Shown here: positions 502 through 25,603 of the stretch, piece after piece
Layout of the letters: every line of letters begins with the position of its first letter
Position numbering within the stretch: position 1 is the stretch's first letter
Virus record (IMG/VR): IMGVR_UViG_3300025115_000052
Location: 1-25,603 of that record
Source of the DNA: a virus
Direction: 5' to 3' (one strand)
DNA: 25,603 nucleotides
Translations under genes and position numbers: made by a program
The notes under the pieces: generated by a model
Seen by the model: the letters and a program-made list of their open reading frames with translations, nothing else
Told to the model about the DNA's origin: nothing
The model's database searches: none

Positions 502-1281
502 TTACCCCCTTCCTTTCGCAAGTGACATGGCCTCGAAGGTGTCGTAACCCACGATGCCGTCAGGTTCCAGCCCCCTGTACACGGTCTGGAACTCTTTGAC
601 CCGCTTCTCTAGTCTGCGGGTGAAAACCTTGTCGTCGCCCAGGCCGAAGGCGGGCTTGAAGCCCAGGTCCTGCAGGCGGCGGCGGATGGAGAGGACGGTT
701 CTGCCCCGTTCTCCCCGCTGCCACACCCCCAGGTCGTCGATGAACAGCCTGCCGTCCACCCATGGCGTGAGATGTGCGCCTGGACAGGAGGTGTCTGAGA
801 GGTCGCTGTGGCAGTAAACAGTGCTGTCGAGGGGTGACTCTACCCAGAGACGGCCAAACGCCGTCCTGGCGGCTCTGGAGGGCCTCTGAGCGCCTCCCAG
901 GATGAAGACCACAGCACGGGAGTGGTAGTTGGCGGGTTCACCGTCGTCTGAGGGGCAGTCGTCGCTGCTCCACTGGCCCCCGTTGGAATGCTGAGGGCCT
1001 CTCAGCCAGTACACTCGGCCTGTCTGACCGATGCCGAAGTTGTAGGCGATGGCCCGCATGCCCTTGGAAGGACCCGTGTGGTACGCCTCCCAGGAGCGGA
1101 GAACACGGCATTCCGCCTCGAACGAGTACGGTGGCGTCCCCCATTCGGAGCCGCCAGCAGCGTTGGTGCCGCCCCCATAGTGGACGATGGTGAGATGCGG
1201 GGCGTACCGCTTGTCATCCGACCAGACCACCTTGTCGGTCAGAACCTTCGCCCCCCACTCTTCGGGCATCACGAAACGCAT
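502..1281 (-). CDS. Endolysin: amidase plus peptidoglycan-binding domain
   Basis: This 259-residue lysin cuts the bond between N-acetylmuramic acid and L-alanine, releasing progeny. An N-terminal amidase_2/PGRP domain covers residues 1-175. The zinc ligands are His34 (TIVHYGG), His158 (YCHSD) and Cys166 (TSCPG), with AIAYNFGIGQTG at 77-88. A C-terminal peptidoglycan-binding type 1 domain covers 195-255: VLSIRRRLQDLGF, then VKEFQTVYRGLEPDGIVGYDTF in two parts (VKEFQTVY, DGIVGYDTF). I start it at ATG 1281 because AGGAGG lies five bases before it. The GTG six bases upstream is part of that ribosome binding site. There is no signal peptide, so a holin is expected, but none is visible nearby. The gap to the giant gene carries a near-copy of the boundary palindrome. 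Confidence 0.92.
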   Translation of the reverse strand: MRFVMPEEWGAKVLTDKVVWSDDKRYAPHLTIVHYGGGTNAAGGSEWGTPPYSFEAECRVLRSWEAYHTGPSKGMRAIAYNFGIGQTGRVYWLRGPQHSNGGQWSSDDCPSDDGEPANYHSRAVVFILGGAQRPSRAARTAFGRLWVESPLDSTVYCHSDLSDTSCPGAHLTPWVDGRLFIDDLGVWQRGERGRTVLSIRRRLQDLGFKPAFGLGDDKVFTRRLEKRVKEFQTVYRGLEPDGIVGYDTFEAMSLAKGRG

Positions 1282-1289
1282 AGACACCT

Positions 1290-1324: not shown

Positions 1325-4300
1325 CTACCCGCCACCAGGATAGAGGCGTGCCAGGATGCTTGCCAGTTCCCCATCGGACATTCCAGACTCGGCCCTGTAG
1401 GGAGTGGCCCATTGGCCCTGGAACTCCATGTCATCCCTCATCTGCCCCAACTCCTGCTGGCGACCGTATTGGGTCGACCTCGTGTTGGCTGGGGTGGCGA
1501 ACCTGAGGCCGAAGCCACCGCTGTTGCGGATGGCAAACCCCGTCAACCTGTCGATCCAGTCACGCTCGCCAGGGGTGTACCCGTACCGTTGAGCCGTCTT
1601 CGGGTCGAGCGGGAAGAACGGTTCCACCCAGGCGCCCACAGTCGGCTGCACCCACGGCAGCAGCAGGTTGAACAACTCCCGTGTCTTAGAATCCACCCCT
1701 ATCTGCCCTTCTGGTGTTTCAGCAAAGGGGCTGCCAGGCAGCAGGGCATTCGTCAGCTTCAGGGCCTGCATCAGGCCCATCGGAGCGTACACCGTGTAGG
1801 GGTCGTTGCGACTCGGATCGACCAGGAAAGCGGCAGGAATCTCCACCTGCGGACCCATCATGTTCGCCAGGAACGACAGCACCCCCATCGGTGACATGCC
1901 CACATCAGTTGCGTTAGCCACATCGAACAGGTCATTGATCGGCAGGTCAGGGTCGATGAACATCCTCGCCCACCAGGGCGTGTCCGCATTCAGGACAAGA
2001 CCAGTGCCCACAGCGCCCACCCCGTAGTAGTCGGGCTGTCCGTACCTGTCATACTCGTCGCCACCACCGAAGTTCTCTTGGATGTTGCGCATGATCTTGA
2101 AGTAGCGCATCAGAAGTTCGGGCCGTTCAAGTGCCATACGCACCTGCAGTTCCATGTTCCGCTTGCCCCACACATAGAAGGGGATCATGTGGTCCTTGAT
2201 CCAGCGTTCCATGTTGGTCAGGTCCGAGTAGTCGAAGTGGACCGCCATCGACATGGAGGCGCCGAAGCGTCCTGCCCCAGGAATGGTCGGGTCGTAGTGT
2301 CGGACAAAGGCGGCCAGACGCATCAGGTTCTCGGACGACTGCATGAGATGGACCCCAGCCCTGACATGCAGGGCCTCCTTGCGGTTCCACAGCTTCAGCG
2401 AGGACAGCCAGCCCCGCACCGTGGACAGGGGTGCGATACCAGACATCTGGTTCACGAACTCGGTGCTGGCGAAGGTGTTGAAGATGCCGTTCTCGTAGGC
2501 GTCCACCAGGGTTTTCTGGTCGCCAGGGGCAAGCTCCCTGAACGCAGTTGTGTCGAAAAGATCGTCGCCTGTACCCACCACCTCTTTGTGCATCTTGTTC
2601 CAGGCGTGCAGCAGCCTGCTGGAGCGAGCGTAGTCGACAGTGCGGACGCCGCTCGCCATGCCGTTCCACCAGCCGCCCCACAGGTTGCGGGGAATGAACG
2701 ACAAGAAGTTGCCCACTGTCACCTGGGTTTTCCAGTTGGCGTAGAGCCGCTGGAACCCTCGGGCGGCGGCCCGCATCGATGGGAACTGTGAGATGCGCCC
2801 AGCCACCTGGGCGTAGTTGTCGAACCACAAGCGCACCTCTGGGGTCACATTGCGACCCTCCAGGGGGCCTCCCGCATAGCCGAACTGTGCAGGGTTGGCA
2901 AACCCTGGAGTGTTAGCCGTGGTGGTGCGATTGCCACGGGTGGTGAGGACCTTCATCATCTTGCGGTACTGGCTCTCGGTCAGCACGCCCTGTTTCACCA
3001 GCTTCTTCGCACCCTTCCGCAGGCCCACCAGCGAATCCTCCAGTCTGTCCTCCACATCTACCAGCAAAGCATCATCTAGCAACAGCTTGCCCTCAGGGGT
3101 CATCACTGCGCCGAACTCGTCGAGCAAACCATCGAAGTCGTGCAGGAACTGCGCAACTGTGTCGAGCATCTCCTGGTTCGTGACCAGTTCCGACTTCTTC
3201 ATCGCTTCAACCTGCTCGATGGCGATCTTCACGCCCCTGCGGGCAGCCACAGGATCGAGGGTGCCAGCTATGCTGGCCTGCAGATGGAACGCCTTCTCGG
3301 CCTCATGGTACACGACCATAGCCTGATCGCCCATCGCTTCCAACTGCTCTGCCACCCTGAGGAACTCGGTCTGCGCCTGCAGGCGCTGCCAATCGTCAGG
3401 CTTCAGCAGCTTCTTCAGCTTCGCCCCGTCTTCCGTCAGCTTGCCCTTCGCATCGTACAGATGATCCCACAGGGCCTTGCCTGCGCCGTCAGACTGTCGA
3501 ACCGCCTGATTCAACTTCGGACGCAGACGAAGATACAGGTCCTCCAGTTCCTCCGCATCCTTGCGCAGCACCTGCAGAACAGTGCCCCTTTCGGGTGGGA
3601 TGCCAGCGTCCGCAGCAATCTCGGCCCCTGCCTGCAAGTACTGCCTGTGCGCTTGGTAGGCGCTGCGGTACAGGTCGAGGGTGTCTTCGATGCCCGCAAT
3701 CGTGTCAAGGGCACGCACGGCCACAGGATCATCCAGTAGCTCCTGTGTTAGGCTGGCAGTAGCGACTCTGCGGTCTGGGTCTGTGAAGAGTCCAACTGTC
3801 CACGCCTCGGGCGGCTCCCATATTGGCCCTTGCGGCGTGCCACCAGGAAGCTTTCGGCTGGACCGCACATGGGCTACGAGAGCGTCCACGAACCGTGTGA
3901 TCTCATCGTCGGCCAGAACAGCAGGCTCCCATTCTGTCAGCACCTTGCGCTGCTTTCCCATCTCCATTGTGTAGGCCCGCTTCACACGGGCACGGCCCAA
4001 CTGGGTGCGGGGCACGATCAGCGACCATTGCCCCGCTCTGCGCCAGGCAGGTAGTTTAGCCCTCTCGTCGGCTAGGGCCTCTTCCCATTCTGTGAGGGCC
4101 TTCGAGTAGTCGGACATTTGCATGCCCTTCTTCGGCTCCAACGCTTGCAGGCTACGGCGCACATCGTCCGACAGCCCTGCGTATATCTCCTTGCCGAGTG
4201 CGATGCGCAGGGCTGCGGCATCGCCGCCCTGACCAAGGACCTGCGCCGCAGTGTCGTCTGTCGGGTTCAGGTAGTCTTGGAAGTTCCCCAGGCCTGCCGC

Positions 4301-7300
4301 TGGCCTCTCAGTGCAGTTCCAGTAGGCGATGCCGTCGAAACCATCACGGGCCAGGGCATCGTCGAACACCTTTCCGAACATCTCACGGTTGGGACTGTGA
4401 TTGGTGGCTATGTCCTGCACGAGGTCGTTGATAAATCTGAGGGCAGAAGGAACCTCCCCGATCTGGGCGCCCCAATATGTGGAGGCATCTCGGAGAGCCG
4501 CCACGAAGGTTGGCTGCTGCATCAGCCACTCCCATATCTTCAGGTCGGGATCGGCCCGCAGGGCAGTGATCATCTGATCCCAATGGACCATGATCTCCCT
4601 GCGGATTTGCCTGTAGCCGAAGCCGCCGTAGCCCCCCGAGTTCTGGAAGTACGGATGTGTGGCGACATCGACGGGAGGCCCACCTCGGGCCGACCCGATG
4701 ATCACACGGTCGTCCTCGGGGAGCCAGTTGACCAGGTCCTCCATGTCTGCCGACCCCAGGGGGCCGTAGCGCAGGTTGGCGGCGAAGGCCTCAGCATTCA
4801 TCTCCCACTCAGCAACAGGCAAACCCCAAGGCCCTTGACCAGCCGCAGCGGCCAGGCCCTCCGTTTCGTCGGGCGCCCACTGGTCCATAGTGGCCCCCAC
4901 AGGGATGGGCTTGTGATGTGAGGTGGCAGTGAACACTCTAGGCTGCCGAAGATCAACGGCGTATTGGAACACACCCAAGTTAGGCCTTCTGAAGCCCTCG
5001 CTCAGAGCGATCTCTTCTACGGGTTCTCCCGCCTCATCGAGAACCCAAGCCTTACCGCCTCGGACGGGGTCGGCTGCCATGATTTCGGCGGCTGACCTGT
5101 CGGCGGTGAGGTGGGCGCCGTAGGTGCAGTTGATGTCGGGGGTGCGGCGGTCGCCGTGCCTGAGCGGATCGAATCCGATGTGCAAACCTGGCTCTTCAGC
5201 TTTGCTGGTGACATGGAACCATGCTGTTCCGCCCAACGAACGCCTATCGTAGACACCGAGCGGGCCTACCTCGTAAGGGACACTGGGTGCCGCTTCGTAC
5301 TTCGCCACTCTACCGTCGAAATCTCTTTGCGCCTGGTGCAGGCGCACCCGTCTCTCCTGCACTGTGCGGGTTGGGGGCACGATGGCGATCCCCCAGGTGC
5401 CATCGGGCCGACGCATGGGCTGCATGATGCTGCCATTGAACTCATGTACGAACTCGGAGATGGCAGCGAACCAGCGGTCACCCATGCGTTCGTCCAGTGG
5501 GAAGAACGGATTCGACTTGTAGCCTTCGGGTGGAATGGCAGGTGTAGCCCAGGCCTTAGGACTCCCCGTCATGTCCCCTGGGCGCAGTGGATTGGCCCGC
5601 AACGGGCGCTCATCGAAATGGGAGGTGACATCCCACATGAACCGCTCAAGTTCTTTCACACGGTTCTCAGCGATCCTGTACCAGTGGCCGACTATGGCCT
5701 GCTTCACCACCAGGTCGTCGGTCTGGGCAAACTTGCCTCCCTTGGCGAGCGAAACGACTAGGTCGCCAGAGCCTTCCAGCGTGTAAGGGGCACCAATAGT
5801 CCTCTCGACTATCTCCCTCACTTGCGACGGATGCATCTTCAGGCCTTCGGCCATGTTCAAGATAGCTTCCTCCGTCCACACTTTCGGCTTGCCAGTCGCA
5901 TCGTCGATGGCGTGACGCACCTTGCTTTCCAGCCACCACTGTTTCAGCAGCGCCCTGTCAGCCGAACGCTCTGGGGTGATCCCATAGCTGGAAGCTGTGT
6001 CCAGCAGGGGGCCGTCGTTCCAGTGGCGGGCCTGCCAGTGCAGAGTCTTGACCATCCGTTCGGCCTCGATCAGTCTCGCCTTGCGAACCAGTTCCTGGTT
6101 CTTCTTCGACACCACCATCAGGAAGTCGGCCTTCTTCCCCTTCACGCCCTTCTTCGCCGCCTTAGCCGCCGTCACATCTTCGGCGCCAGCCTGGAGGGCC
6201 TTGAACTCTGCCTCCCAGGCAGAGCTTGTGGCAACAGCATCATCAAGAGCTTGGCCTGTTAGACCAGCCTCACGGGCCATGGCCTCTTGCAAGGACTTGT
6301 TGGGTGCGTCCCAGGACCAGAGGTCCGAGGCGACTCGCAGATCGTCTTCGTCTACCAGGGACAACTCGCCTCTGCGGGCGGCCTCCTTCAGCCGCTCCTG
6401 CAGGGGGGGGAACGAGAAGAAGGCCTGACTGCCCACCGTTTCGGAGCCGCCCTTCTGCAGAATCTCCCTCACCAAGCGTTCCGCCTCCAGGCCTACTTCG
6501 GCAGGTGTCCAGTCGACCTCCTTGCCCAACCAAACCCCCTTCCACTTCTTCCACCCACCAAGGTCGCCAACGATCTCCAGAGCGGACAGTGCGGCTTGAT
6601 GTGAGTAGTACAGGCGAAGGTTGGTGGCCTCGTCCATGAACACGGTGGCTGCGGCGGCCTGCCCATTGTCCTTGGACAGGAGCAGTTTGCGCATGGCCGA
6701 CAGCCACTCATACCGTCTACCAGTCGAATAGTCGTAGCGGGCCACGGTCACCAGGTTCTTGTGCAGTTCCCGTAGGCGGTCGAGGATCGCCTTCGTCTGT
6801 TCGGCTTCGGCCAGCAGGGCGGACAGTGCCGTCGCATTAGCGGCCTCATCCTCACCGTAAGATGCAGGGTCGATGAGGCGGGTCTTCACATCTTCGGGGA
6901 GTTGCGCCTTGCCCATCTTGACTCTGGTAGCGTTGATCCCGTAAAGAGCGTTGTCCACCGAACCTGGCACACCTGGGGTGGAGGGGGTGCCCCGTTCCAG
7001 ACGAATGGCCTCCAGAAGCTGGAGTTCTTCCTGATGGGTGAACAGGCGCACCGAACGGCCCTGAGCCTCGTCCCATTCGGGATTAGGAATACGCCAAGCT
7101 GGATGCTTGGGCGGTTTCTTCTCTCGGCGGGCCGCAGCGATACGGCCAATCAGCGAATGGTACTCATGGTCCTTCGCTGCCAGTTCGGCCTCCACCTTGC
7201 CCAGGTCACCCGCCACGCCGTCGCCGTTCGGCATGTCGGCCCCCGCCTTGCGGGCCGCTTCAATCTCCCGCATTTCAAGATCGATCTCTCTCACCAAGGT

Positions 7301-10300
7301 CCTACGACGAGCCTCCACCCCTTCCCACAGGAAGGCGGCGACCTGCACCATGTCCTGCTCTTGCAGGAAGATAGGCCGCTGCATGGATTCCACCATGGGA
7401 AGTTCGTCGGTAGGGACGGCTTCCTCGAATCCGAGGGTGGTGCGTTTGGCCGCTGTTACCACTGGTATCCGCTTCGCCACCTCCCGCACCCGCTTCACCA
7501 GTGTTTTGTGGGCCTGTTCGACCGCCCGCTGGGCAGCCCTGTCAATCGAGGTCATGCGCCTTTCGAGGGCGTCCAGAGCGTTGTCGCCTGACCTGGCGCC
7601 CTTGCTCGCCAGCACCTTCGCCTTGGCTGTCGGACCCATCAGGTTGAGGGCACGGTCGAAGGACTCCCGCAGCCACCATTGCATGTCTTTGGCGGCGAGG
7701 CGAAGAGCGGCTGCCAGGTCGGCCACCGCCTCGTCGGGGCCGAGGTCCACGATGGCTTCTGCCATGTGGCGGGGTAGCTTGAACCGTTTCATCGCCTGCT
7801 TGACCATGCCTTCCCGTTCGGCGCTACGGGTGACATCCGCCGCAGGGGTGAACGCTTCTGCCTGTCTCAGCCGTTTGACGGCACGCTGCACGATGGGATG
7901 GTTGGCTATTCCCTCCCAGACTTCTATGGTTTCCCCACCACCCAGGTCGATGGTGGCCGTCTTCATCTTGGGGGCTGGGCCATTGGCGAGGATGTTGCGC
8001 AGATGCTTCTGGATGTCGTCGCCGCCCCAGTTCCCCGAGAAGATGTTGAGAAGCACATCCTGCACCTTCACACCCCGACCGTGGCCGAGTTTGCGGAGAG
8101 TGACAGTGCCGATCTTCTCCCACTCGGAGACAAGCGCCCACTCCTTCAAGGCCTCGCCCATGTCGAAGATGTAGTTGCGGATCAGGGTAGCCGACTGGTC
8201 CTCGAACACTCTGGGGACCATCCTTCCATCTGCCAGCGGCAGGGTGTCGGCCTTGCCAAGTTTGGGCAGGCGCAGTGAGGGGTTGCGGTCTATCACATCT
8301 TGCAGGGCCTCACCCATGAGACGGTTGGCCTCCACAGGGCCGATCCAGGTTCCACCGACGAGCCGACCGTTGACGGCAGAGTCCATCAGGCCGTTGCCTT
8401 CAGGACCCCACATGCGGAAGGCAACTCGCCCCAGGGTGCGCTCTTTCATTTCGGGGGCCATGCCGATCTTCGAGAAGGATGTCTTGATGGAGGTGGCAGC
8501 TATGAAATCGGACAGCATCTGATGGCCGATGCCAAGTTTCGGGTCAATGTCAATACCTTCCTTGGCAATGATTTCAGCGGCCAGTCTCATCCACGAACTT
8601 GTGACGACAGGCACATAGTTGTCAATGCTGCCCATGTCTTGGTTGTACTCTTTAGCCTTGCGCAGGAAGATGGCGTATATCTCACGAACCTTGTCGGCTT
8701 CCCGCATGGCAGCGTCGTGAATCTCCTTATCCCCGCCTATCAGCACTTGCCCAGAACGGTAGTCACGCTGCCGCTCTGCGGGGGCGGTGAGGAACTCGGT
8801 CACCTCACGCTCGATCTTGTCGAAGTCTACCCCCTTCCGAGCCGCCAGTTTGGCGACACGGGAAGTGACCCCGACCAGCCTAGCCTGGGCCTGCATCACC
8901 ATCACATTGATGGCAGGGATAGCTTTCGCTTCGGACATGGCTATGGCCGCAGCGTTCTTGCGGCGTCCTAGCCAGGTGAGCATGTGACCCCGACCGTGCT
9001 TGGCAATGAACTCGTCTGTCTTGCGGGCGAAGTGCCCGATGCTGGGGAAGGTTTCTGCGGTCTTCTCCCAAGCCTTGCCGAAGGTTGCGACCCTCAGTTT
9101 GCTTCCCAGCCCTCGGGTGCCAGGAACGGTGAACCATCCGTAGCGGCCAGTGATGCTGCCGAAGCGGATGCCGCCTGCCATGTAGGCGGGCATGCCTTCG
9201 CTAGGCCCTAGACGCACGATGTCGGCAAAGTCATCTTCAAGCTCGAAGAACCTACGCCGCACCGCCGCCTCGTAGGTGTGGATCAGGAAGTCGGACGACT
9301 GCGGAATGCCATTCACCGTCGTGTACATCAAACGGTTGACGGCGGTGTCCATGTGTTCCCAGGCCAGGGTGAGAGGGTCGGTGAACAGGGCTTTCGCCTC
9401 TTCGGGGCCGACTAGTTTGCTCAACTGGTTGTAACTGATTGGTTTGGGAACAGCCGTCATCTTTGACAGTGCGGCGTTGATCTTGTCAAAGTGTTCTGTC
9501 ACCACATCGTCCAGATGCTTGGAGAGCAGGCCGTAGGTGCGGGTGACGAACTTGGACTTCGCAAACCTTGGCATAGCCGCTTCCAGTTCTGCGACTGTTT
9601 TGTAACCTGCGCTGTTGAGCAGTCTGGGGATCAGGGCCTGCATGCCTGCCTGGTCGAACTTGCGGGCCGCTGCCACAGCAACGGCACGGCGAAGAACACC
9701 TGATGCGGCTTCACCTCTCGCAACCGCCCCCGTGAAAGTGCCGCCGAAGGTGATACGGGCCATAGGATCAAGGTAAACATCCAGCCACAAGGTCGGAATG
9801 AAACGAATGACACCCTCACCAATCGAAGTAGGGCTTGACCAGTCGACCCCGCCATCCTGGGCTTTCCAGCCCAGCATGTTGTGTATGTCAGAGCCGAAGA
9901 ACATGCCGTCCGCTCCGAAGGCAGCGGCCCTGTCTGTGGCGAGGCGTTCACGGTCGCCCGTGATGATGGAGGCGATGTCGGTGAAGGACACGCCACGCTC
10001 GTTGCCACCGCCCTCTTCTGGGCCGTCACCGCCGAAGTAATAGGTGAGCAGACCTGTCGAGGCCGCCACCACCTGGGTGGGCCTCAACAGGGCGTAGTCC
10101 AGAACCTTCCCGAACCAGCCCATGTTGCGGTTCCACCAGCCGCCGATGCTCCTGCCGCCTGTCATGTCCTGATAGGCGCCCGACAGGGCATCCCTCTCCT
10201 GCATTAGAGAGGCCCGTTCGTCGGTGCTGAGGTCAGGCTGGGCGAGCAGGTCGTTGATGTCGTCGATGGTGCGCTGAATCGACTTCAGGGCATCATCCGA

Positions 10301-10543
10301 GGACACCATGCCCGTGTTCGGTTGATCGTACTGCTCACCCATCCAACGGTCAGGATGTGCGGGAGAGAGGATCGTTGCCATCGTGCCAGGCTTCACAGCA
10401 TACAGACGGTCCATGAAGCTGCTGGCAATGCGCATGCTGCCATCGTTGTTCTGCCCCAACAACTGCCTGGCCTGATCAAGGCGCTGCTGGGTTTCCCACA
10501 CGCTGTTCGAGTAGATGCGGTTGACCGTGTCAGTGACGGTCAT
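1325..10543 (-). CDS. Giant 3072-residue internal virion/ejection protein
   Basis: This single intact frame takes 36% of the window. Residue numbers are approximate. Residues 1-300 hold an aromatic, partly hydrophobic stretch (PTQVVAASTGLLTYYFGG, ~155-172). Residues 300-1700 are mainly helical, with DNYVPVVTSS near 642 and charged coiled coils near 1080-1130. Residues 1770-2080 resemble an ART-like fold: AWFHVTSK, YGAHLTADRSAAE and GFDGIAYWN. Residues 2280-2530 are again helical. The C-terminal 500 residues carry NWKTQVTVGNFLSFIPRNLWGG (written in parts: NWKTQVTVGNF and IPRNLWGG) near 2603, and DYSDLTNMERW followed by IPFYVWGKRN near 2772-2796. That block recurs in very large phage proteins. 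It shares a TAATG junction with the M23 gene. The likely role is a channel or cargo protein ejected with DNA. Confidence 0.85.
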   Translation of the reverse strand: MTVTDTVNRIYSNSVWETQQRLDQARQLLGQNNDGSMRIASSFMDRLYAVKPGTMATILSPAHPDRWMGEQYDQPNTGMVSSDDALKSIQRTIDDINDLLAQPDLSTDERASLMQERDALSGAYQDMTGGRSIGGWWNRNMGWFGKVLDYALLRPTQVVAASTGLLTYYFGGDGPEEGGGNERGVSFTDIASIITGDRERLATDRAAAFGADGMFFGSDIHNMLGWKAQDGGVDWSSPTSIGEGVIRFIPTLWLDVYLDPMARITFGGTFTGAVARGEAASGVLRRAVAVAAARKFDQAGMQALIPRLLNSAGYKTVAELEAAMPRFAKSKFVTRTYGLLSKHLDDVVTEHFDKINAALSKMTAVPKPISYNQLSKLVGPEEAKALFTDPLTLAWEHMDTAVNRLMYTTVNGIPQSSDFLIHTYEAAVRRRFFELEDDFADIVRLGPSEGMPAYMAGGIRFGSITGRYGWFTVPGTRGLGSKLRVATFGKAWEKTAETFPSIGHFARKTDEFIAKHGRGHMLTWLGRRKNAAAIAMSEAKAIPAINVMVMQAQARLVGVTSRVAKLAARKGVDFDKIEREVTEFLTAPAERQRDYRSGQVLIGGDKEIHDAAMREADKVREIYAIFLRKAKEYNQDMGSIDNYVPVVTSSWMRLAAEIIAKEGIDIDPKLGIGHQMLSDFIAATSIKTSFSKIGMAPEMKERTLGRVAFRMWGPEGNGLMDSAVNGRLVGGTWIGPVEANRLMGEALQDVIDRNPSLRLPKLGKADTLPLADGRMVPRVFEDQSATLIRNYIFDMGEALKEWALVSEWEKIGTVTLRKLGHGRGVKVQDVLLNIFSGNWGGDDIQKHLRNILANGPAPKMKTATIDLGGGETIEVWEGIANHPIVQRAVKRLRQAEAFTPAADVTRSAEREGMVKQAMKRFKLPRHMAEAIVDLGPDEAVADLAAALRLAAKDMQWWLRESFDRALNLMGPTAKAKVLASKGARSGDNALDALERRMTSIDRAAQRAVEQAHKTLVKRVREVAKRIPVVTAAKRTTLGFEEAVPTDELPMVESMQRPIFLQEQDMVQVAAFLWEGVEARRRTLVREIDLEMREIEAARKAGADMPNGDGVAGDLGKVEAELAAKDHEYHSLIGRIAAARREKKPPKHPAWRIPNPEWDEAQGRSVRLFTHQEELQLLEAIRLERGTPSTPGVPGSVDNALYGINATRVKMGKAQLPEDVKTRLIDPASYGEDEAANATALSALLAEAEQTKAILDRLRELHKNLVTVARYDYSTGRRYEWLSAMRKLLLSKDNGQAAAATVFMDEATNLRLYYSHQAALSALEIVGDLGGWKKWKGVWLGKEVDWTPAEVGLEAERLVREILQKGGSETVGSQAFFSFPPLQERLKEAARRGELSLVDEDDLRVASDLWSWDAPNKSLQEAMAREAGLTGQALDDAVATSSAWEAEFKALQAGAEDVTAAKAAKKGVKGKKADFLMVVSKKNQELVRKARLIEAERMVKTLHWQARHWNDGPLLDTASSYGITPERSADRALLKQWWLESKVRHAIDDATGKPKVWTEEAILNMAEGLKMHPSQVREIVERTIGAPYTLEGSGDLVVSLAKGGKFAQTDDLVVKQAIVGHWYRIAENRVKELERFMWDVTSHFDERPLRANPLRPGDMTGSPKAWATPAIPPEGYKSNPFFPLDERMGDRWFAAISEFVHEFNGSIMQPMRRPDGTWGIAIVPPTRTVQERRVRLHQAQRDFDGRVAKYEAAPSVPYEVGPLGVYDRRSLGGTAWFHVTSKAEEPGLHIGFDPLRHGDRRTPDINCTYGAHLTADRSAAEIMAADPVRGGKAWVLDEAGEPVEEIALSEGFRRPNLGVFQYAVDLRQPRVFTATSHHKPIPVGATMDQWAPDETEGLAAAAGQGPWGLPVAEWEMNAEAFAANLRYGPLGSADMEDLVNWLPEDDRVIIGSARGGPPVDVATHPYFQNSGGYGGFGYRQIRREIMVHWDQMITALRADPDLKIWEWLMQQPTFVAALRDASTYWGAQIGEVPSALRFINDLVQDIATNHSPNREMFGKVFDDALARDGFDGIAYWNCTERPAAGLGNFQDYLNPTDDTAAQVLGQGGDAAALRIALGKEIYAGLSDDVRRSLQALEPKKGMQMSDYSKALTEWEEALADERAKLPAWRRAGQWSLIVPRTQLGRARVKRAYTMEMGKQRKVLTEWEPAVLADDEITRFVDALVAHVRSSRKLPGGTPQGPIWEPPEAWTVGLFTDPDRRVATASLTQELLDDPVAVRALDTIAGIEDTLDLYRSAYQAHRQYLQAGAEIAADAGIPPERGTVLQVLRKDAEELEDLYLRLRPKLNQAVRQSDGAGKALWDHLYDAKGKLTEDGAKLKKLLKPDDWQRLQAQTEFLRVAEQLEAMGDQAMVVYHEAEKAFHLQASIAGTLDPVAARRGVKIAIEQVEAMKKSELVTNQEMLDTVAQFLHDFDGLLDEFGAVMTPEGKLLLDDALLVDVEDRLEDSLVGLRKGAKKLVKQGVLTESQYRKMMKVLTTRGNRTTTANTPGFANPAQFGYAGGPLEGRNVTPEVRLWFDNYAQVAGRISQFPSMRAAARGFQRLYANWKTQVTVGNFLSFIPRNLWGGWWNGMASGVRTVDYARSSRLLHAWNKMHKEVVGTGDDLFDTTAFRELAPGDQKTLVDAYENGIFNTFASTEFVNQMSGIAPLSTVRGWLSSLKLWNRKEALHVRAGVHLMQSSENLMRLAAFVRHYDPTIPGAGRFGASMSMAVHFDYSDLTNMERWIKDHMIPFYVWGKRNMELQVRMALERPELLMRYFKIMRNIQENFGGGDEYDRYGQPDYYGVGAVGTGLVLNADTPWWARMFIDPDLPINDLFDVANATDVGMSPMGVLSFLANMMGPQVEIPAAFLVDPSRNDPYTVYAPMGLMQALKLTNALLPGSPFAETPEGQIGVDSKTRELFNLLLPWVQPTVGAWVEPFFPLDPKTAQRYGYTPGERDWIDRLTGFAIRNSGGFGLRFATPANTRSTQYGRQQELGQMRDDMEFQGQWATPYRAESGMSDGELASILARLYPGGG

Positions 10544-13137
10544 TAGGAGGGCGCTCCAGTGAAGAGGGCTGCCAGGAACGGGTAGGGGTTCACCCTTATC
10601 GAACTGCCAGGAGCGGTGACGCTGAAATGCAGGTGATTGGTGAAGGCGTTGCCCGAGTTGCCCACCCAGCCGATCTGCTGGCCTGTGGCGACCTTGGCGC
10701 CACGGGAGATGCCGATGGTGGCAAGTTGGGCGAGTGCCTGCTGGTAGGTGACCCCCTTCCCGAACATGTGAGCGTAGCGGTAGTGGCGGTTATCGAGGCC
10801 AAGCACATCCACGATCACGCCGCCACCAGCGGTGGGGTCAGGTTGAAAGTCGATTGCGTGGATGGTGCCGCCCATGAAAGCCATGATCGGGTTGCCTGCT
10901 GGGGCGTTTATGTCCACCCCGCCGTGGCTGGTGCCCGTAATGGGGCGCCACTCTCCGAAGTTGTTGGACACTCTGTCGAAGCTCACACCAGGCAGCACCC
11001 AGGCCAGATTCGGGGCGTTGATCTGCTCCTGGTCGGTGACCCACTGTGCAGAACCCGAGTTGAGAGCCTCGAAGCCGACACGGTACAGGTTGCGCATCCA
11101 GGGATCGATCCCACGGGGCCATTCGCCACTGTCAATCATCTGCTGACGGACAATGTCGTTGAGCGCATCACGCAGCGTCTGCGACTCAGCTACACTCAAC
11201 TCCCCGAAGCGGCGGGTGTTGGGGTCCAGGGGGTCCAGTACACTGCTGGCCCCCGCTATCCCTAGCCTTTGGGCAATCTGGCCCCGTTGCCGTGCGACAT
11301 CCTCATCCCAACTGCTGGTCAGTTGATGAACCTTTTCGGCTTGCTGCGCTTCGGCTGCGGCTTGGAGGTCGGCCATGTGGAGTTGGAACCCCTCGAAGGT
11401 TGTGATGCGCTGCCCCTGCAGCCCATCAGCCGAACCCGTCCAGAAGGCTGTTAGGTCAGCCATCAGGGTTTGCATGGCGACATCGTCGAAAACGGTTTCG
11501 TCGATGCCCGCCAGGTCGACCGCACGGGCTATCTCGTTGGCGGCGTAGGACAGAGCGTATTCGGACTGACCCACCTGTAGAGCATCTGCGTTAGCGTACT
11601 GGTTGTAGTAGTCCCATGTCATGCTGTCGATACCCTGCTGGCGCTGAGCCGCAGTGAGAGCGTAGTTCTGCTGCATTCTGCGCATCGTTTCGGAAAGCTC
11701 CCAGAACATGGCTTCGGCGCCTTCCTGGGCGGCCACCATGACCTGATCCTCCTGAGCATCCAACTGGTTGAGGATGTTCTGCAGGGCAGCGTCGTTGTTG
11801 GCGATGATCTGCTCCAGGCTGGCCCCAGACTGCTCCAGAAGCTGCGCCATCTGGGCGCTGCTCTGCGTCTGCAACTGGTAGCGGGTTCGTTCGGCATCCA
11901 TCACTGCCGAGTACCGCTGTCCCTCTAGGGTCTTCAGGCGGGCAGCCACCTGGTAGCGGGAAGCCTTACGGGCAAGGTCACCGAGTGACTCCTGTAGCTG
12001 CGTGCCCCACAGGCCCTCATACTCGGCCTGCTCCACGGCCACGGCGGCAACCTCACGAAGGTCGCCCATGACCTCGTCGACCAGGCCAGGATCGTCCGCA
12101 CCGATGACCCGCATGGCACGACGGAACTCAGCCGAGTTGGATTCGACTGCTTTGGCTATAGAGTCTGTTTCTGCCACCTCATGCTTGCGCACATGGGCGA
12201 TGGCTTTCATGTCGCCCACTGAAATGCGGTCTACCACCTTCTGCCAATACTTGGGGAGACGGCCCATGGCTCGTTCGTAGTCCTCGCCCGTGTAGGTCAT
12301 GTACTCGTTAAGCATGCGGTTCATCTTGTCCTGGTATTCACGCCAACGAGATTTCACTTCTGCGTCGTATTCCGAGTAACCCTGACGGACCAACCCCTCA
12401 TATTCCGTGTAAGCATCACGGGTTGCTTGGGCAGTGCGCTCGATTGCCGAAAGGGCGCCTTCACGCCAGGCGTTCCACAGGCCGTTCACACGGCCCTGGG
12501 CTGCAGTGATACGGGTCATCTCCCCATTCAGCAGGGAGAGTTGCTCGTTGAACACGCCAGCCGCAATGTCGGCGCCAACGGCGAGAGCATTCTGCATGTT
12601 GGTCAGATACTGCTTGCGCTGGGCTTCCACCGCACTAGTCCAGGCCGAGGGGTCCTGCTCTTCCATGGCCCCCCAGTAGATGGAATCGGGCCAGCCTGGA
12701 GGCTGGGTCAGTATGGAAACCCCATCGGGGCTGGAGGAACCACCCCAAGGCCCTATCGACGGGGTAGAGGACGGCCCCCATCCGCCTGGGGAAGACGGCC
12801 CCCATCCGCCTGGGGAACCAGATGCCCCAGGGGAGGGGAACAGGCTCATCTGATTCTGATAGGGGTTGGCCGCAGTGTACTGTTGGGCCTGCTGCTGGAT
12901 GCCCACATAGCTGAGACTCGGCATGTTGGAGGGCAGCACCGCCCCAGGCGGAATCCAACCACCCTGCGGGTAGGCAGCGTTCGGGCCGACCCACTGCCAG
13001 CCGACACCTGGCGACGGCGGTGCTGTGGAGGGAGGGATGACAGCCCCAATCGGCGGGATGGTGGTGCTGGTGGGTTCAGCCTGGGTCGACTGGCCCGTGC
13101 CGAAGAGTGCGGCACGGGTGCGGAACTTCAGCGCCAT
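10543..13137 (-). CDS. Virion-associated M23 endopeptidase, ejection protein
   Basis: This is an 864-residue multi-part protein. Residues 1-150 are Pro/Gly/Ser-rich and include repeated GGWGPSS. Residues 160-690 are mostly long helices with Gln/Glu/Ala, probably rod-like. The last 127 residues are an M23 peptidase that cuts peptidoglycan cross-links. It has His738 and Asp742 (HGGVD), His790 (YAHM), and His835 and His837 (NHLHF), the full zinc-site set. I start it at ATG 13137 (MALKFRTRAALFG), one base after the previous stop. The longer frame back to 13239 would overlap the upstream gene by about 100 bases and gives an Arg/Ser-rich peptide. Its TAA overlaps the ATG of the giant gene (TAATG). 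It probably opens the cell wall during DNA delivery, like T7 gp16's enzyme domain. Confidence 0.85.
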   Translation of the reverse strand: MALKFRTRAALFGTGQSTQAEPTSTTIPPIGAVIPPSTAPPSPGVGWQWVGPNAAYPQGGWIPPGAVLPSNMPSLSYVGIQQQAQQYTAANPYQNQMSLFPSPGASGSPGGWGPSSPGGWGPSSTPSIGPWGGSSSPDGVSILTQPPGWPDSIYWGAMEEQDPSAWTSAVEAQRKQYLTNMQNALAVGADIAAGVFNEQLSLLNGEMTRITAAQGRVNGLWNAWREGALSAIERTAQATRDAYTEYEGLVRQGYSEYDAEVKSRWREYQDKMNRMLNEYMTYTGEDYERAMGRLPKYWQKVVDRISVGDMKAIAHVRKHEVAETDSIAKAVESNSAEFRRAMRVIGADDPGLVDEVMGDLREVAAVAVEQAEYEGLWGTQLQESLGDLARKASRYQVAARLKTLEGQRYSAVMDAERTRYQLQTQSSAQMAQLLEQSGASLEQIIANNDAALQNILNQLDAQEDQVMVAAQEGAEAMFWELSETMRRMQQNYALTAAQRQQGIDSMTWDYYNQYANADALQVGQSEYALSYAANEIARAVDLAGIDETVFDDVAMQTLMADLTAFWTGSADGLQGQRITTFEGFQLHMADLQAAAEAQQAEKVHQLTSSWDEDVARQRGQIAQRLGIAGASSVLDPLDPNTRRFGELSVAESQTLRDALNDIVRQQMIDSGEWPRGIDPWMRNLYRVGFEALNSGSAQWVTDQEQINAPNLAWVLPGVSFDRVSNNFGEWRPITGTSHGGVDINAPAGNPIMAFMGGTIHAIDFQPDPTAGGGVIVDVLGLDNRHYRYAHMFGKGVTYQQALAQLATIGISRGAKVATGQQIGWVGNSGNAFTNHLHFSVTAPGSSIRVNPYPFLAALFTGAPS

Positions 13138-17639: not shown

Positions 17640-18308
17640 CTACACCCCGTCGAGCCAGGGCATGTTCGTCGTGTACGGTGCGGGGGTCGGACCCGCCCCG
17701 TAGACACGGGGGTAGTCCTCGGCTTCCTTGATGTAGAGGGCGACCATTTCGCCCACCTCGTTGTCGAAGCGACCGTCGAAGTACAGCGACTTCTCCATGT
17801 CCTCTTCATGCTCCCACACACGGGCGATGGCGTAGGAGGCGAGGACATAGTGGAACTCGACATCGAACTCTGGGCTGTCGCCATCGTTGACCAGCGCAGT
17901 CGGCGCCTTCAGGTAGTACAGGGTGTAGGTCTTGGCCGCAGTGGAGGGCACGGGGACCAGACTGATCTGATCCTCGTAGATGAAGTACCAGGAGGCACGG
18001 TTGGCGTCGGGGAAGTCGTCGCCCCACTTGGAGATCGCCTGCTCCCAGGAGAGGCGGGTGAGGCGCCTGTCGTATCCTACCTCGGTGATGCCCAGGGCCT
18101 TGCGGAAGTCGGCGGGCTTAGAGTAGACCCGCTGCGCAGCCACAGTGGTGATGGTGGCCGTCTCATGCAGCCACGGCCACGGCCAGCGGTTGGCGAGACG
18201 GCGCAGACCCTCGTTGAGCCACACGGTCAACTCGGAATCCTGAATGTCGTCCAACTCCACCAGCGTCATGTGCCGCACATAGGTGCGGAGTTCGCTAAGG
18301 GTTGCCAT
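17640..18308 (-). CDS. Head-tail connector (adaptor) protein
   Basis: This 222-residue adaptor forms the ring between portal and tail. It begins MATLSELRTYVRHMTLV, followed by DSELTVWLNEGLRRLANRWPW at about residues 23-43. This helical pattern is typical of podovirus adaptors (T7 gp11 / P22 gp4-like families). The middle has VYSKPADFRKALGITEV and the beta segment DQISLVPVPSTAAKTYTLYY. The end is helical, with a Tyr/Asp-rich tail. The ATG at 18308 overlaps the zinc-finger gene by 14 bases and has AAGGTGAAGG upstream. The following gene starts two bases past its stop. Its place after capsid and before the nozzle gene strongly supports the call. Confidence 0.85.
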   Translation of the reverse strand: MATLSELRTYVRHMTLVELDDIQDSELTVWLNEGLRRLANRWPWPWLHETATITTVAAQRVYSKPADFRKALGITEVGYDRRLTRLSWEQAISKWGDDFPDANRASWYFIYEDQISLVPVPSTAAKTYTLYYLKAPTALVNDGDSPEFDVEFHYVLASYAIARVWEHEEDMEKSLYFDGRFDNEVGEMVALYIKEAEDYPRVYGAGPTPAPYTTNMPWLDGV

Positions 18309-18615: not shown

Positions 18616-19569
18616 TTAGGTCAGGCCAGTCAGCTTCCCGTGCCTCTTGCAGTTGGACGGAACGAAGTTGCCGTAGCACAAGATGTGCTTGTACCAGACA
18701 TCCTGATTCGTGGGCGCCCGCATCTCGCTGGGCTTGAACCACACGCCGCTCAGGTACTTCAGGTACAGGTACTTCAGGTTCAGCATGTACATGTAACCAG
18801 AGGTGCAGTTCGCAGAGAACGCCATGGGCGCCCCCTTGAACATGAGATTCTGGAAACCTGCATCTGCCATCTTCGGGTCCTCGAAACGCTGGTTCGTCTG
18901 AATCAGCGCCTCGTAGTCCCCGAACCGCTCTGCATCGGTGAACACATTGGTCGGATGATCGTTGCCTTCGGAGATTCCGTTGTACAAGGTCACCATCGCA
19001 GCGACGCTCAGAGCGCCGCCGACAGCGGTTTCCGTTGCACGCCAGTAGGCCCCTCCAGCAACAGTACGGTCGATCCCACCAAGGTCGCCCCAGGCTGGGT
19101 CTGCCGAATCAACGATGGCCTCCAGACCGTAGAAGTCCTTGCCAGCGTTGCCAGAACCGTCTCCGAACAGCATCACTTCGAGTTGTTCGGACATGGTCAA
19201 CTCCAGTTGCTGCAGCCGAGCCGAGAGCAGCGAGAGCAGGGCTGCACGGCCCTTGTTCTTCGCAACCTCGATCCCCTCGATGGAGAACAGTCCGTAGAAC
19301 TGCTTCCAGGGGAACTCAGCGGCAGAAATACCAGTGTTCGCATTGGTCGTGAACGGATCACTACCCGAGTAGGAACCCTTGTTCGCAGCCTGAGCGTACA
19401 CCAGAGGCTGGACGATCTTCTCGCCACCCTCCTGGTTCTCGATTCGGCCAGCAGCCTTCAGCACCCAGAGCAACGGCTTCGAGGTGAAGACATTGTCTGC
19501 GAGCGTCGGGATGTAGTGCTTCAGCGTGGTAGCCAACAGGCCATCCGTGCCGTAAGTCGAGTTTGGCAT
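18616..19569 (-). CDS. Major capsid protein (HK97 fold)
   Basis: This 317-residue coat protein builds the icosahedral head. The N-terminal part has the family pattern KPLLWVLKAAGRIENQEGG followed by KIVQPLVYAQ and SYSGSDPF at about residues 31-70. A central helix follows, with LLSARLQQLELTMSEQLE (about 111-128). Later come FKGAPMAFSAN and a beta-rich C-terminus. No delta domain or protease site is evident at the N-terminus. The start ATG at 19569 is preceded directly by an in-frame TAG, so it cannot be further upstream. The AGGAGG site ends 14 bases before it, unusually far. The segment encoding LKYLYLKYL contains a short 12-base direct repeat. It follows the scaffold gene, as expected. Confidence 0.92.
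   Translation of the reverse strand: MPNSTYGTDGLLATTLKHYIPTLADNVFTSKPLLWVLKAAGRIENQEGGEKIVQPLVYAQAANKGSYSGSDPFTTNANTGISAAEFPWKQFYGLFSIEGIEVAKNKGRAALLSLLSARLQQLELTMSEQLEVMLFGDGSGNAGKDFYGLEAIVDSADPAWGDLGGIDRTVAGGAYWRATETAVGGALSVAAMVTLYNGISEGNDHPTNVFTDAERFGDYEALIQTNQRFEDPKMADAGFQNLMFKGAPMAFSANCTSGYMYMLNLKYLYLKYLSGVWFKPSEMRAPTNQDVWYKHILCYGNFVPSNCKRHGKLTGLT
18752..18778 (-). repeat. 12-base direct repeat in capsid gene
   Basis: AGGTACTTCAGG occurs at 18752-18763 and again at 18767-18778, 15 bases apart. It encodes LKYL twice within LKYLYLKYL near the capsid C-terminus. It is probably a chance or recent small duplication. Confidence 0.6.
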
Positions 19570-20603: not shown

Positions 20604-22484
20604 CTAGGCGGGCGGCATCTGACCCGTGTTGAGGGCGCTCAGAGCCTCAGTTGGGGGCACAGCCGAAGCCAGGTTGGGTTGTGCGTTGACGAGGGAGGAC
20701 AGGTCGCCTGGCCCCTGCTGCTGGCCCATGCCAGGCTGGGGCGGCATCCCGCCCATGCCCATGGGTGCGGGCGGTTGGGGCTGCTGGAACATGGCGTCGA
20801 CATCGAGGATGCCAGCCGCCTCGAACCACAACTCGAACACCCGTCGCAGGTTCAGGTTCACCCCGAACTGCATGAGGCCAGGTGCCAGTTGGGCAAGCTG
20901 CACAGCCATCTCACGGAACTTCTGCTCCTTGAAGATGGGGTTGCGCAACTCGGTGGAGTTCTGCAGCACCTCGATGTTGTACACACCGACGAACATGTCG
21001 GCGCCGAGGGAGACTTCGACATCGCCGTTGACGGGGGTGCCTGCCATCTCGGCGGCGAGGACTTCGGGTTTGGCGCCCTTGGCGGCGATGGAGTCCATCT
21101 TCTCCCGCATCGCAGCCTTGTTGATGGCCTCCGCATCCCGTCCAGAGATGAGCAGGGCTGTCTCTTCGTAGTCGGTGACGGGGAAGACATCGGCGGCGAA
21201 GCCGAGGACGAGGGTGGCTGCCAGGCGGGTGAACTGCTCCACTTTGCGCAGCTTGTGGGCGGTCTTGATGTTGGAGGCGCCTTCGATGATGGACGCTTCG
21301 GTGGCGGTGCGCCTGATCTCAGGGGTGGCGCCCCTCAGGTACTCGTTGACACCTGTGACCTCGTAGACATCCCGCTGGATGAGGTCGGAGACATTGTACT
21401 GCTCCGAGGTGAGCGGGGTGAGGCCGATAGCCTGGATGACATCCATCAGCGGACGGTCGCCCTTGATCTTCACCATCTGGTTGACGACCTGGGAGGTGAG
21501 GGCGTCCTCTGTCTCTGCGTCGAGGACATCGGCCTTCACCAGGAACTTGGGGATGTTGCGGCGCCGATGCGTGAGCATCTGGCTGCGGCTCTTGTTCAAC
21601 TCCTGCTGCAGGGACCATATCTGCTCCAACTCGCCCATGTGGTAGGGCATCTTCGGGAGCCAGTGGTTGGGCAGGTTGATGATCGGGCACTTGGCCTGTT
21701 CGATCACACGGAGGGGGCGGTCGCCTGCGGCGCCGAAGACGATGAGGCGGTCTTCGATGCGATCCCAGAACTCGTAGATGTCGACCCACTGTTTGCCGTC
21801 GTCGGCAGGACGGAAGTGGGCTTCGTCTTCGGTGGCGATCTCAGCCTGGTCGATGCCGAGCAGATCGTCGGGGAGGGCGTCGTACAGGCCAGAGTCTTCA
21901 AGCTCTTCCTTCGTGGTCCTGATCTTCTCGCACACCCAGCGGGCGTCGATGAAGTCTCTTGCCATCGGGTCAACCCAGATGTTCCAGGGGTCGACGGCGT
22001 CGAGCATGATGTCGGCCTTGGTGTACTGGCCTTCCTTCGAGAACTTGTAGGACACCTTGGCGTAGCCGTCGCCGTAGATGAGGGAGTCGAAGGCCACGGA
22101 CTGGACGGCTCTGGCGGCGCCCGAGTCGAGGGACTGCCACCAGCGGTTCAGCCACGCCTCCTGGGCACGGGCGTTCGACATGGTGGCGTCGAGGGACCAG
22201 GGGGTGATCACGAAGTTGGGGTCGGACCCTGAGATGTAGGGGACGATGGTGTTGACGGTGGAGAAGCTGATGTTGATGGTGATCAGGTCGGCGGTGGGGT
22301 CCTGTGAGGTAGGGGTGGTGGCCCACTGGTCGCCCTGGTACTGCTGCTCCGACTGTTTCCAGGCTGTCTCACGCTTGGAGGTGCGCTGCTGCTGCGCCAC
22401 TGTCAGAAGCTGGCGGGCGTAGTTGACAGCCTCAGACCACTCTTCGGCTCTGAGGTTCTCTGCGGCGACACCTACATAGCGCAT
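20604..22484 (-). CDS. Portal protein
   Basis: This is the 626-residue portal subunit, which forms the dodecameric channel at the capsid vertex that the terminase docks on and the connector closes. It starts with ATG behind an AGGGG site. The N-terminal region holds a helical start (residues 1-45), then QYQGDQW and TINISFSTVNTIVPY. This layout is typical of podovirus and P22-like portals. It is followed by a long alpha/beta body with VNQMVKIKGDRPL and a helical region near residues 380-470 (EYLRGATPEIRRTATEAS). The C-terminus is a Pro/Met/Gly-rich tail (QPPAPMGMGGMPPQPGMG). Length and neighbours (terminase upstream, scaffold and capsid downstream) agree. It ends in TAG 67 bases before the scaffold gene, in a gap that carries hairpins and a TGTCGACA element. 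Confidence 0.92.
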   Translation of the reverse strand: MRYVGVAAENLRAEEWSEAVNYARQLLTVAQQQRTSKRETAWKQSEQQYQGDQWATTPTSQDPTADLITINISFSTVNTIVPYISGSDPNFVITPWSLDATMSNARAQEAWLNRWWQSLDSGAARAVQSVAFDSLIYGDGYAKVSYKFSKEGQYTKADIMLDAVDPWNIWVDPMARDFIDARWVCEKIRTTKEELEDSGLYDALPDDLLGIDQAEIATEDEAHFRPADDGKQWVDIYEFWDRIEDRLIVFGAAGDRPLRVIEQAKCPIINLPNHWLPKMPYHMGELEQIWSLQQELNKSRSQMLTHRRRNIPKFLVKADVLDAETEDALTSQVVNQMVKIKGDRPLMDVIQAIGLTPLTSEQYNVSDLIQRDVYEVTGVNEYLRGATPEIRRTATEASIIEGASNIKTAHKLRKVEQFTRLAATLVLGFAADVFPVTDYEETALLISGRDAEAINKAAMREKMDSIAAKGAKPEVLAAEMAGTPVNGDVEVSLGADMFVGVYNIEVLQNSTELRNPIFKEQKFREMAVQLAQLAPGLMQFGVNLNLRRVFELWFEAAGILDVDAMFQQPQPPAPMGMGGMPPQPGMGQQQGPGDLSSLVNAQPNLASAVPPTEALSALNTGQMPPA

Positions 22485-23939: not shown

Positions 23940-23966
23940 CCTACACATCAGGGTCAGGTGTCGACA
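23940..23966 (-). promoter_or_regulatory. Boundary element A (TGTCGACA, terminase end)
   Basis: An exact TGTCGACA palindrome at 23959-23966 lies in the last codons of the terminase gene. It is followed on the minus strand by 8 bases, then TGATGT, G and TAGG. The palindrome is 26 bases before the ATG of the 104-residue gene. The downstream half departs from copies B-E because it is also the terminase stop and a ribosome binding site. Function is unknown. Confidence 0.4.
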
Positions 23967-25603
23967 GGATGTTGGCGGGGAGCATCTCCCAGGAGCGATG
24001 ATCGTAGTCGCTGTCTGTGCGCCTGCCCAACGGTGTGTACAGCGGGGAGCTTCCCTTCTGGACGGCTTTCGGCATGGTGATGGCGAGAACCTCGTCGATG
24101 GTGATGGGCCGCTTCGTGTGATCCACCCACACCCGAGGGTACTTGCCGATGTCCAAGCATGCCTGGTAGCCGATCAGGTAGGCCATGATCAGGTCGTCGT
24201 GGTTGCCGTCGGAGGCCCCGTAGGAGCCTGCGCCGTCCGACAGGAAGGTGCGGGCCTCATGCAGGAAGCGGGGGTCACGCAGACGGATGGTGTCTTCCCG
24301 CACCGCTTTGGCGAACTCGATCACCATCTTCGGCTTGGTGCTGCGGTTGGTGTGCCACCCGTAGCGTGGGGTGCGGTCACCCCGTTTGATGCTGGCGATG
24401 CTGTCCATGCGCATGAGACGAGGGTACTGCCGCTGCGACAGGTAGGTGAGGGGCACCAGGCCCTGGTTGTTGCGTTCCACCGCCACCAGGGCGGTGTAGT
24501 ACCAGTAGCCGAGCCATTCGATCATCTGCCCCAGGTCCTCAACAGGGATGTACGCTTTGGCTGCTGCTACGACCTCCAGGGTGTTCGCATCCCACACGCA
24601 GATAGCCGAGTAGTCCAGGTCTTCCAGGCCCTCGGACACATCGGCGCCGACCACGAAGTTCGGCTGCTGCACCACGATGCCGTAGTCGTCACGCAGCACA
24701 TACGGCCAGGTCCAGATGGAAAGCTCGAAGTCACGCTCGTCGCCTGGCAGGATTTCGGCCAGGGCGAGAGCAGCATCCACCTTCGGTCCTTGCAGCAGGG
24801 TGAGGTCCAGCCGCCAGTTGGCAGGCCCCCAATCATGGTTCGCCTCCAACAGGTCGAGGGCGAAAGCGGTGCGGCCCGACTTGGCGAACGCCTCCGCAGC
24901 GGTGGTCGGGTACTCCTGGTAGAACAGCCATTCACGGCCACGGTACCTGCGCAGGGTGCGCTTGAACCAGTCTTCGCTGCGCCCAGGCACCACCGACCAC
25001 GGGTGGAAGGCACGCTCCCATTCGGAGTCGGGAAGCTCCGCATCCTGCCAGGTGTCAGCGAAGAAGTTCCCCAGGCCATTCGCCGTGGAGAACAGGAACA
25101 GGGGACCGTAGGTCAGCGGGTCGAGGGCGGCAAACAGCGACTCGGCATCCTCCATGAAGGCGGCTTCATCCATGATCGCACCATAGACCGCACGGCCACG
25201 AGCAGCCGCAGCACCAGAATGCACAGCGCTGAAAGAACTTCCATTGTCGAACCCCAACTCCTGTGAGTTATCGACGATCACCCGAGGCCCACGGCTGCGC
25301 ATCCATTCGGGGAGCATCGAATACGGAATCTTCACTTTCGACAGCAGCGTCTTCTGCGCCTCATCCTCTGACTGCTGCGCAGCCAGCCACGGATGATGGG
25401 CGTTGAAGAAAGCATTGTGGAATCCGAAGCCGCAGGCGACCGTCGTGTACCCGATCTGCCGTGCTTTCAGACGAACCTGCCGCTGCTTCGCCTCCCCCTT
25501 ACAGGCCGCAACCATCAGACGCACATCCGCCTGCTGGTAATCACGCAGCCCAGCAACACTGTAACCCTTCCCAATCACCTCGATGTTCCAGTAGGTGTTC
25601 AGG
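23941..25603 (-). CDS. terL: Terminase large subunit, 5' end beyond window
   Basis: This is the ATP-driven DNA packaging motor with a headful or end-cutting nuclease. Numbering is from an internal GTG at 25578. A Walker A-like loop, KARQIGYTT, lies at residues 38-46. Walker B is IMDE at 135-138, followed by a coupling motif FLFSTANG at 161-168. The RNase H-like nuclease shows Asp313 (GADVSEG), Glu369 (AVERNNQ) and Asp461/462 (GNHDDLI). The frame stays open upstream of the GTG to the window edge (NTYWNIE precedes it). That upstream peptide resembles the usual start of this family, so the true start is probably outside the window. The visible part is about 553 residues. The gene leads the late module, and its stop codon runs straight into the ribosome binding site of the next gene. 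The family call is secure; only the N-terminus is unknown. Confidence 0.95.
   Translation of the reverse strand, partial: LNTYWNIEVIGKGYSVAGLRDYQQADVRLMVAACKGEAKQRQVRLKARQIGYTTVACGFGFHNAFFNAHHPWLAAQQSEDEAQKTLLSKVKIPYSMLPEWMRSRGPRVIVDNSQELGFDNGSSFSAVHSGAAAARGRAVYGAIMDEAAFMEDAESLFAALDPLTYGPLFLFSTANGLGNFFADTWQDAELPDSEWERAFHPWSVVPGRSEDWFKRTLRRYRGREWLFYQEYPTTAAEAFAKSGRTAFALDLLEANHDWGPANWRLDLTLLQGPKVDAALALAEILPGDERDFELSIWTWPYVLRDDYGIVVQQPNFVVGADVSEGLEDLDYSAICVWDANTLEVVAAAKAYIPVEDLGQMIEWLGYWYYTALVAVERNNQGLVPLTYLSQRQYPRLMRMDSIASIKRGDRTPRYGWHTNRSTKPKMVIEFAKAVREDTIRLRDPRFLHEARTFLSDGAGSYGASDGNHDDLIMAYLIGYQACLDIGKYPRVWVDHTKRPITIDEVLAITMPKAVQKGSSPLYTPLGRRTDSDYDHRSWEMLPANILSTPDPDV

Follow-up and report, generated by a model that had tools for sequence, protein, structure and literature searches.

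The late gene cassette and the giant frame

The window (the whole stretch of DNA analysed here, a 25,603-base fragment from an IMG/VR virus record) carries a late gene cassette on its minus strand, in the order terminase, portal, scaffold-like gene, major capsid protein (MCP), adaptor, a virion-structural-type protein, fibre-like ORFs, a 267-aa protein, an M23 protein, the giant and a lysin (Table 1). The giant is encoded by a single 3,072-codon frame (9,219 nt) with one stop, specifying a product of about 341 kDa. An earlier, sequence-only reading had described this 9.2-kb frame as intact, and this is borne out: zero stops across 3,072 codons at 61% GC would have a chance of about 10^-41, the codon-position GC (0.64/0.45/0.75) is even along the gene, and the frame is kept in a relative, G001, as a 3,007-aa ORF with 26-31% identity over nearly the whole length. 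The position of the frame stands as described; the strand, left unsaid at that time, is the minus strand, the plus-strand reading of the same interval showing stops throughout and the longest stop-free run opposite the giant gene spanning 369 codons. The TAATG overlap between the giant and an M23 gene was also found, the ATG of the former sharing letters with the TAA stop of the latter (...CCTCCTAATGACC...), and the upstream product matches Peptidase_M23 (E=1.3e-14). The TAG stop of the small gene lies one base before the ATG of the medium gene, and the lysin begins 37 nt after the giant. One of the fibre-like ORFs (13971-15143) possesses many His-Thr repeats (HTHTITHTHTIAHTH), and is possibly metal-binding.

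Table 1. Features of the window, ordered by position.
Feature	Position	Strand	Remarks
Lysin	502..1287	-	Amidase_2-like + PG_binding_1
Giant gene, 3,072 aa	1325..10543	-	2 Cys
C-module, residues 2598-2966	1646..2752	-	NWKTQVTV..F..RNLWGG..N ... HFDYSDLTNMERWIKDHMIPFYVWGKRN
Variable middle / putative cargo, residues 933-2345	3509..7747	-	common to closest relative G001 only
Candidate H-Y-D ADP-ribosyltransferase-like stretch, residues 1770-2200	3944..5236	-	motif level only
N-terminal conserved core, residues 73-932	7748..10327	-	common to G001 and L068; in part to L032/G010 and L070
N-module, residues 101-333	9545..10243	-	window sequence left out of the HMM, E=2.3e-5
Medium gene, 864 aa, ATG at 13137	10543..13137	-	C-terminal M23 peptidase, 1 Cys
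Small gene, 267 aa	13139..13942	-	Pro-rich C-terminus, 0 Cys
Fibre-like ORFs	13971-15989		
SU10-type adaptor protein	17640..18308	-	PF24175 E=2e-24
Major head protein	18616..19569	-	phrog_9953 E=2.4e-61; bait for relatives
Scaffold-like gene	19613-20536		
SU10-type portal protein	20604..22484	-	PF23899 E=1.4e-12
Terminase large subunit	23941..25603	-	phrog_2 E=2.9e-19; 5' end off contig

The giant of the window has no match in Pfam or PHROGs, LPD38 and ART-PolyVal (PF18760) failing to appear even in Pfam scans run to E=10, and neither tblastn against the phage collection nor a scan of IMG/VR with the whole protein returned a match. No classical transmembrane segment was seen in it. The earlier description of the interior as having little recognizable sequence holds for public family libraries; residues 73-932 are nevertheless conserved in several relatives.

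A family with two conserved end modules and an exchangeable middle

Relatives were reached by a search of IMG/VR with the MCP, which gave ten, and four of these have a giant in the equivalent position: G001 (3,007 aa), G005 (3,693 aa), G010 (1,890 aa), and G004 (>1,748 aa). Each of the four giants begins at the stop of the preceding gene, and the locus consists of a small gene, a peptidoglycan-hydrolase gene, the giant (1,890-3,693 aa), and then a lysin downstream. The similarity of the G005, G010, and G004 giants to that of the window lies mainly in the two terminal regions. Searching with a profile built on the C-terminal blocks and with the sequence of one relative then led to DS1, and on to Jasmine, Shocker, and Podoviridae ctEqG8. 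Overall, the family is present in at least 461 IMG/VR viral contigs, and in 13 bacterial-genome contigs with labels including Gemmatimonadota, Acidimicrobiia, Paenibacillus, and Cohnella, a set insufficient to name the host of the window phage. The actinobacterial members (Arthrobacter Jasmine gp29, Microbacterium Shocker gp37, and Cellulosimicrobium DS1 QSJ04773) are all annotated as hypothetical. In the loci collected, 114 ORFs encode the C-module, 70 of them complete, at 848-3,693 aa save one split 405-aa ORF. The giant is thus a member of a large, mostly unnoticed protein family with two conserved end modules and an exchangeable middle, and the minimal members, of about 850 aa, are composed of the end modules and a short middle only.

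Very large structural genes of actinobacterial podoviruses had been mentioned in the earlier reading. The giants probably meant, those of cluster EK/Burro (>4,400 aa; PMC7302621, PMC8281081), show no match to either module; the actinobacterial homologues are the proteins of Jasmine, Shocker, and DS1. Two collected loci deserve mention on their own. In L066, from a Clostridiales genome, the N-module and the C-module are encoded by two adjacent ORFs that overlap (7932-9158 and 9119-10336), so that the gene has either been split or survives as a remnant with a frameshift. In L058, from a bacterial MAG, a 1,243-aa member (2490-6218) is weakly matched by RelA/SpoT (E=0.007) ahead of the C-module.

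The C-module lies near the C-terminus in every member, ending 35-207 aa from it in unsplit complete members, and the N-module is found in nearly all. The C-terminal blocks had been said to resemble those of other giant phage proteins, and the relatives indeed conserve an invariant R-N..GG, HFDY, and PF.VW..RN. The C-module of the window is matched at E=3.8e-78 by a profile whose seed includes the window, and independent BLAST support comes from an alignment with L054 (28% over 521 aa, E=1e-36). The family motif of the N-module, GF..DV..DPLTY..GA, is divergent in the window (LDVYLDPMARITFGG), and the N-module profile, with the window left out of its seed, matches 72 family ORFs, the window among them (E=2.3e-5). 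Both modules are therefore present in the giant of the window, one near each terminus; the E-values refer to the small set of loci searched. Beyond these 72, among 7,834 ORFs, only truncated or split members were matched; as the loci had been gathered mostly by way of the C-module, this exclusivity holds only within them.

As to the middle region, residues 933-2345 of the window giant are conserved in G001 only. Among the 36 members scanned, the middles of relatives contain ddrB-ParB (3.6e-15), cpYpsA (4.4e-22), and DUF4326 (2.2e-6) domains, each in a single member, as well as a weak GNAT match; the ddrB-ParB and cpYpsA domains lend support to the effector role that had been raised as possible. 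The G005 giant carries cpYpsA and DUF4326 in one polypeptide, the cpYpsA SLOG domain (PF12694) adjoining DUF4326 at residues 1563-1867 of the 3,693-aa ORF (L033), and both of its cysteines (1674, 1683) are inside this cargo. The middle of the window giant is a putative cargo as well, and it contains a candidate ADP-ribosyltransferase-like stretch, judged by the motifs WFHVTS / TYGAHLTADRSAA / FDGIAYWN. The H, Y, and D motifs were seen by eye in both the window and G001, with Y in different alignment columns; a scan of IMG/VR with this stretch returned no relatives, and a two-sequence AF2 model of it (pLDDT 36) had an unreadable fold. Both cysteines of the giant (1806, 2077) fall inside this stretch.

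Structure prediction was carried out on an 876-aa relative (L057), for which AF2 with 26 sequences gave a mostly helical model (pLDDT 69, pTM 0.68). Foldseek of this model against BFVD returned 87 matches at E<=1e-3, many named LPD/LPD38 (Large polyvalent protein associated domain; E 4e-14 to 4e-7, TM 0.26-0.50) and others named ART-PolyVal-like, RelA/SpoT, Zeta toxin, helicase or methylase, and the Shocker protein was among these viral-model matches; against PDB, nothing scored below E=0.38. The Pfam LPD38 profile (PF18857) matched none of 26 records, nor any of the control genomes, and what the model suggests is thus a resemblance in fold of this one relative to LPD38-type polyvalent proteins, not LPD38 membership.

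Gene order and cysteine depletion

The small, medium, and giant genes measure 267/864/3,072 aa in the window, 336/824/3007 aa in G001 and 321/647/3693 aa in G005. Their order and size grading match those of the known ejection cassettes of T7 (gp14/15/16, 196/747/1318 aa), P22 (gp7/20/16, 229/471/609 aa), and N4 (gp52/51/50, 150/644/3500 aa). The wall hydrolase of the upstream partner varies, being M23 in the window and G001, VanY in G010, and Phage_lysozyme2 in G005; across the wider family, Pfam gives no match for the majority of the proteins encoded upstream.

A second line of evidence is presented by cysteine content. The 70 complete members contain 12 cysteines in 129,057 residues (0.009%), and 66 of them contain none, compared to 0.41% in the other ORFs of at least 500 aa in the same loci and 0.045% in the upstream partners. 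For the giant of the window, two cysteines in 3,072 residues correspond to p=4e-6 when set against 0.57% in the remaining late proteins of the window. The other rare residues, W, M, and H, show no comparable depletion. The reference ejected proteins (T7 gp14-16, P22 gp7/16/20, and N4 gp50-52, assigned as such per PMC8954989, PMC12633501 or the sequence records) possess a single cysteine in 7,864 residues, versus 80 in 11,129 for other late proteins (p=1.4e-17), and SU10 gp20-24 and lambda gpH possess none. The proposal of a large virion or ejection-type gene next to an M23 ejection protein is thus supported by a depletion that the family shares with known ejection proteins. Scaffolds, the N4 MCP, and lambda V are Cys-free yet not ejected, and 44 of the 146 other ORFs of at least 500 aa in the loci are Cys-free; among these 44 are partners, truncated members of the family, and the Burro/Akoni giants. 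The signal is therefore at its strongest in long proteins.

Family-wide cysteine depletion is new here; in the open-access papers searched, no mention came up of ejection proteins being poor in cysteine, and the papers on ejection that were consulted say nothing of this residue, which does not prove the depletion unreported. Its simplest cause may be that thiols are selected against in proteins which exit the virion, unfold, and traverse an oxidizing compartment. A separate observation concerns SU10, where gp23 (L149 23951-25606) and gp24 (L149 25674-30095; 1,473 aa, hypothetical), both Cys-free, come after the annotated ejection proteins, gp24 closing the late cluster as its largest gene; both look like further ejection proteins.

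Proposed role, alternatives, and known systems

Gene order and sizes, the modular layout, the effector-type middles of relatives, and the cysteine signature, taken together, make the giant best read as an ejected protein of the polyvalent type. Members of the family very probably reside in the virus head and are driven into the bacterium along with the DNA, and we consider it likely that the giant is such a virion-packaged protein, a Cys-depleted delivery chassis with a swappable cargo. According to this model, the giant would be the last and largest product of a three-gene ejection cassette (267 aa, M23 864 aa, 3,072 aa) of a short-tailed phage, packed within the virion and passing by way of portal and tail into the host as infection begins; in transit it would probably be unfolded in part, and it would refold afterwards. 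The N- and C-modules would act as the chassis, serving in packing, docking to partner proteins and membrane, and DNA guidance, while the poorly conserved middle would be a cargo active inside the new host, in the style of polyvalent proteins, here with an ADP-ribosyltransferase as a possible part of it. The need to pass the narrow tail and the host envelope would have led selection to remove nearly all cysteines. The channel role envisaged earlier is possible, but the scaffold role finds no support, as a separate scaffold-like gene is present.

The alternative to be weighed most seriously is that the whole giant is an ejectosome subunit of the T7 gp16 or N4 gp50 type, a channel or motor component whose middle is structural and not cargo. 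We regard this as rather unlikely: gene order and cysteine profile are indeed those of T7 gp16 and N4 gp50, a weak DPLSYVP/DPLTY match exists to T7 gp16 residues 335-430, and the minimal members offer little besides the end modules, but the middles of relatives contain ddrB-ParB, cpYpsA, and DUF4326 (the cargo enzyme of the window itself being only putative), and the Foldseek matches of L057 point to polyvalent proteins. In T7 gp16 (L148), the VDPLSYVPMVG stretch within those residues scores above shuffles with the N-module profile, and a distant link is possible. Homology to T7 gp16 is not claimed, as the N-module score of 11.8 bits exceeds the shuffle maximum of 5.9 but the hhalign probability is 16%.

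A tail fibre or host-specificity protein is suggested by the name of phrog_19395 ("tail fiber protein; host specificity"), which matches the C-module of several short members. This is most improbable, and we reject the name for the C-module: fibre-type proteins are not depleted in cysteine (9 in SU10 gp17, 8 in the P22 tailspike, 11 in lambda J), the window encodes separate fibre-like ORFs, the modelled relative is nearly all helical, and the gene follows the M23 partner. A third alternative, that a divergent giant conceals a virion RNA polymerase like that of N4, draws on the size, position, and lack of cysteine of N4 gp50 (3,500 aa); it is scarcely credible, as no polymerase-like match was found at accepted significance with Pfam or PHROGs in the window or relatives, and members as short as about 850 aa have no room for a polymerase.

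With the reading as an ejected, cargo-carrying protein, a set of unannotated giant phage genes becomes one family with a testable job, in which actinobacterial podoviruses available in culture are joined to environmental phages in the hundreds, and a simple sequence rule for ejected phage proteins emerges: long, cysteine-free, and last of a small-medium-giant cassette. If the chassis-and-cargo model is true, effectors of early infection are catalogued in the middles, and the chassis amounts to a natural protein-translocation system. The broader proposal, that the two modules serve short-tailed phages generally as a chassis for protein delivery, a Cys-purged carrier threading through tail and host envelope with interchangeable enzymes between its modules, and that a near lack of cysteine over very long frames predicts ejection from sequence alone, EK/Burro giants included, could in our judgment go either way.

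Among known systems, the actinobacterial podovirus proteins (phrog_36598) Jasmine gp29 (1,803 aa), Shocker gp37 (1,743 aa), and DS1 QSJ04773 (1,783 aa) possess both modules, with the C-module near the C-terminus and a lysin gene downstream, as in the window; they have zero cysteines where the giant of the window has two, are about 1,300 residues shorter, and their middles are unrelated to it in sequence. The polyvalent LPD38-type proteins (Iyer et al. 2017, PMC5512222) resemble the family in being giant and multidomain, with virion gene contexts and variable effector-type domains, and ddrB-ParB in one relative and the fold of the modelled one add to the likeness; unlike them, the giant of the window matches neither the LPD38 nor the ART-PolyVal profile of Pfam, and the M23 and VanY hydrolases of the family sit in a separate upstream gene. 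The EK/Burro giants (PMC7302621) are also products of very large podovirus genes, Cys-free over the parts read (4,220 residues of Burro gp27, L052, and 3,815 of Akoni gp31, L053), and Burro virions hold a protein of ~250 kDa presumed to be gp27 (PMC7302621). Unlike in the window, the giant gene of these phages immediately precedes that for the portal, and homology is rejected, the profiles of both modules giving no match; they may be functional analogues. Like T7 gp16 and N4 gp50, the giant is last and largest of a small-medium-giant set and Cys-free or nearly so; T7 gp16 has its own transglycosylase and N4 gp50 an RNA polymerase, and sequence homology of the window giant with either is not established. 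N4 gp50, the giant product of the last ejection-cassette gene, brings an enzyme into the cell (PMC12633501), and by this analogy it would be the closest functional parallel to the giant of the window.
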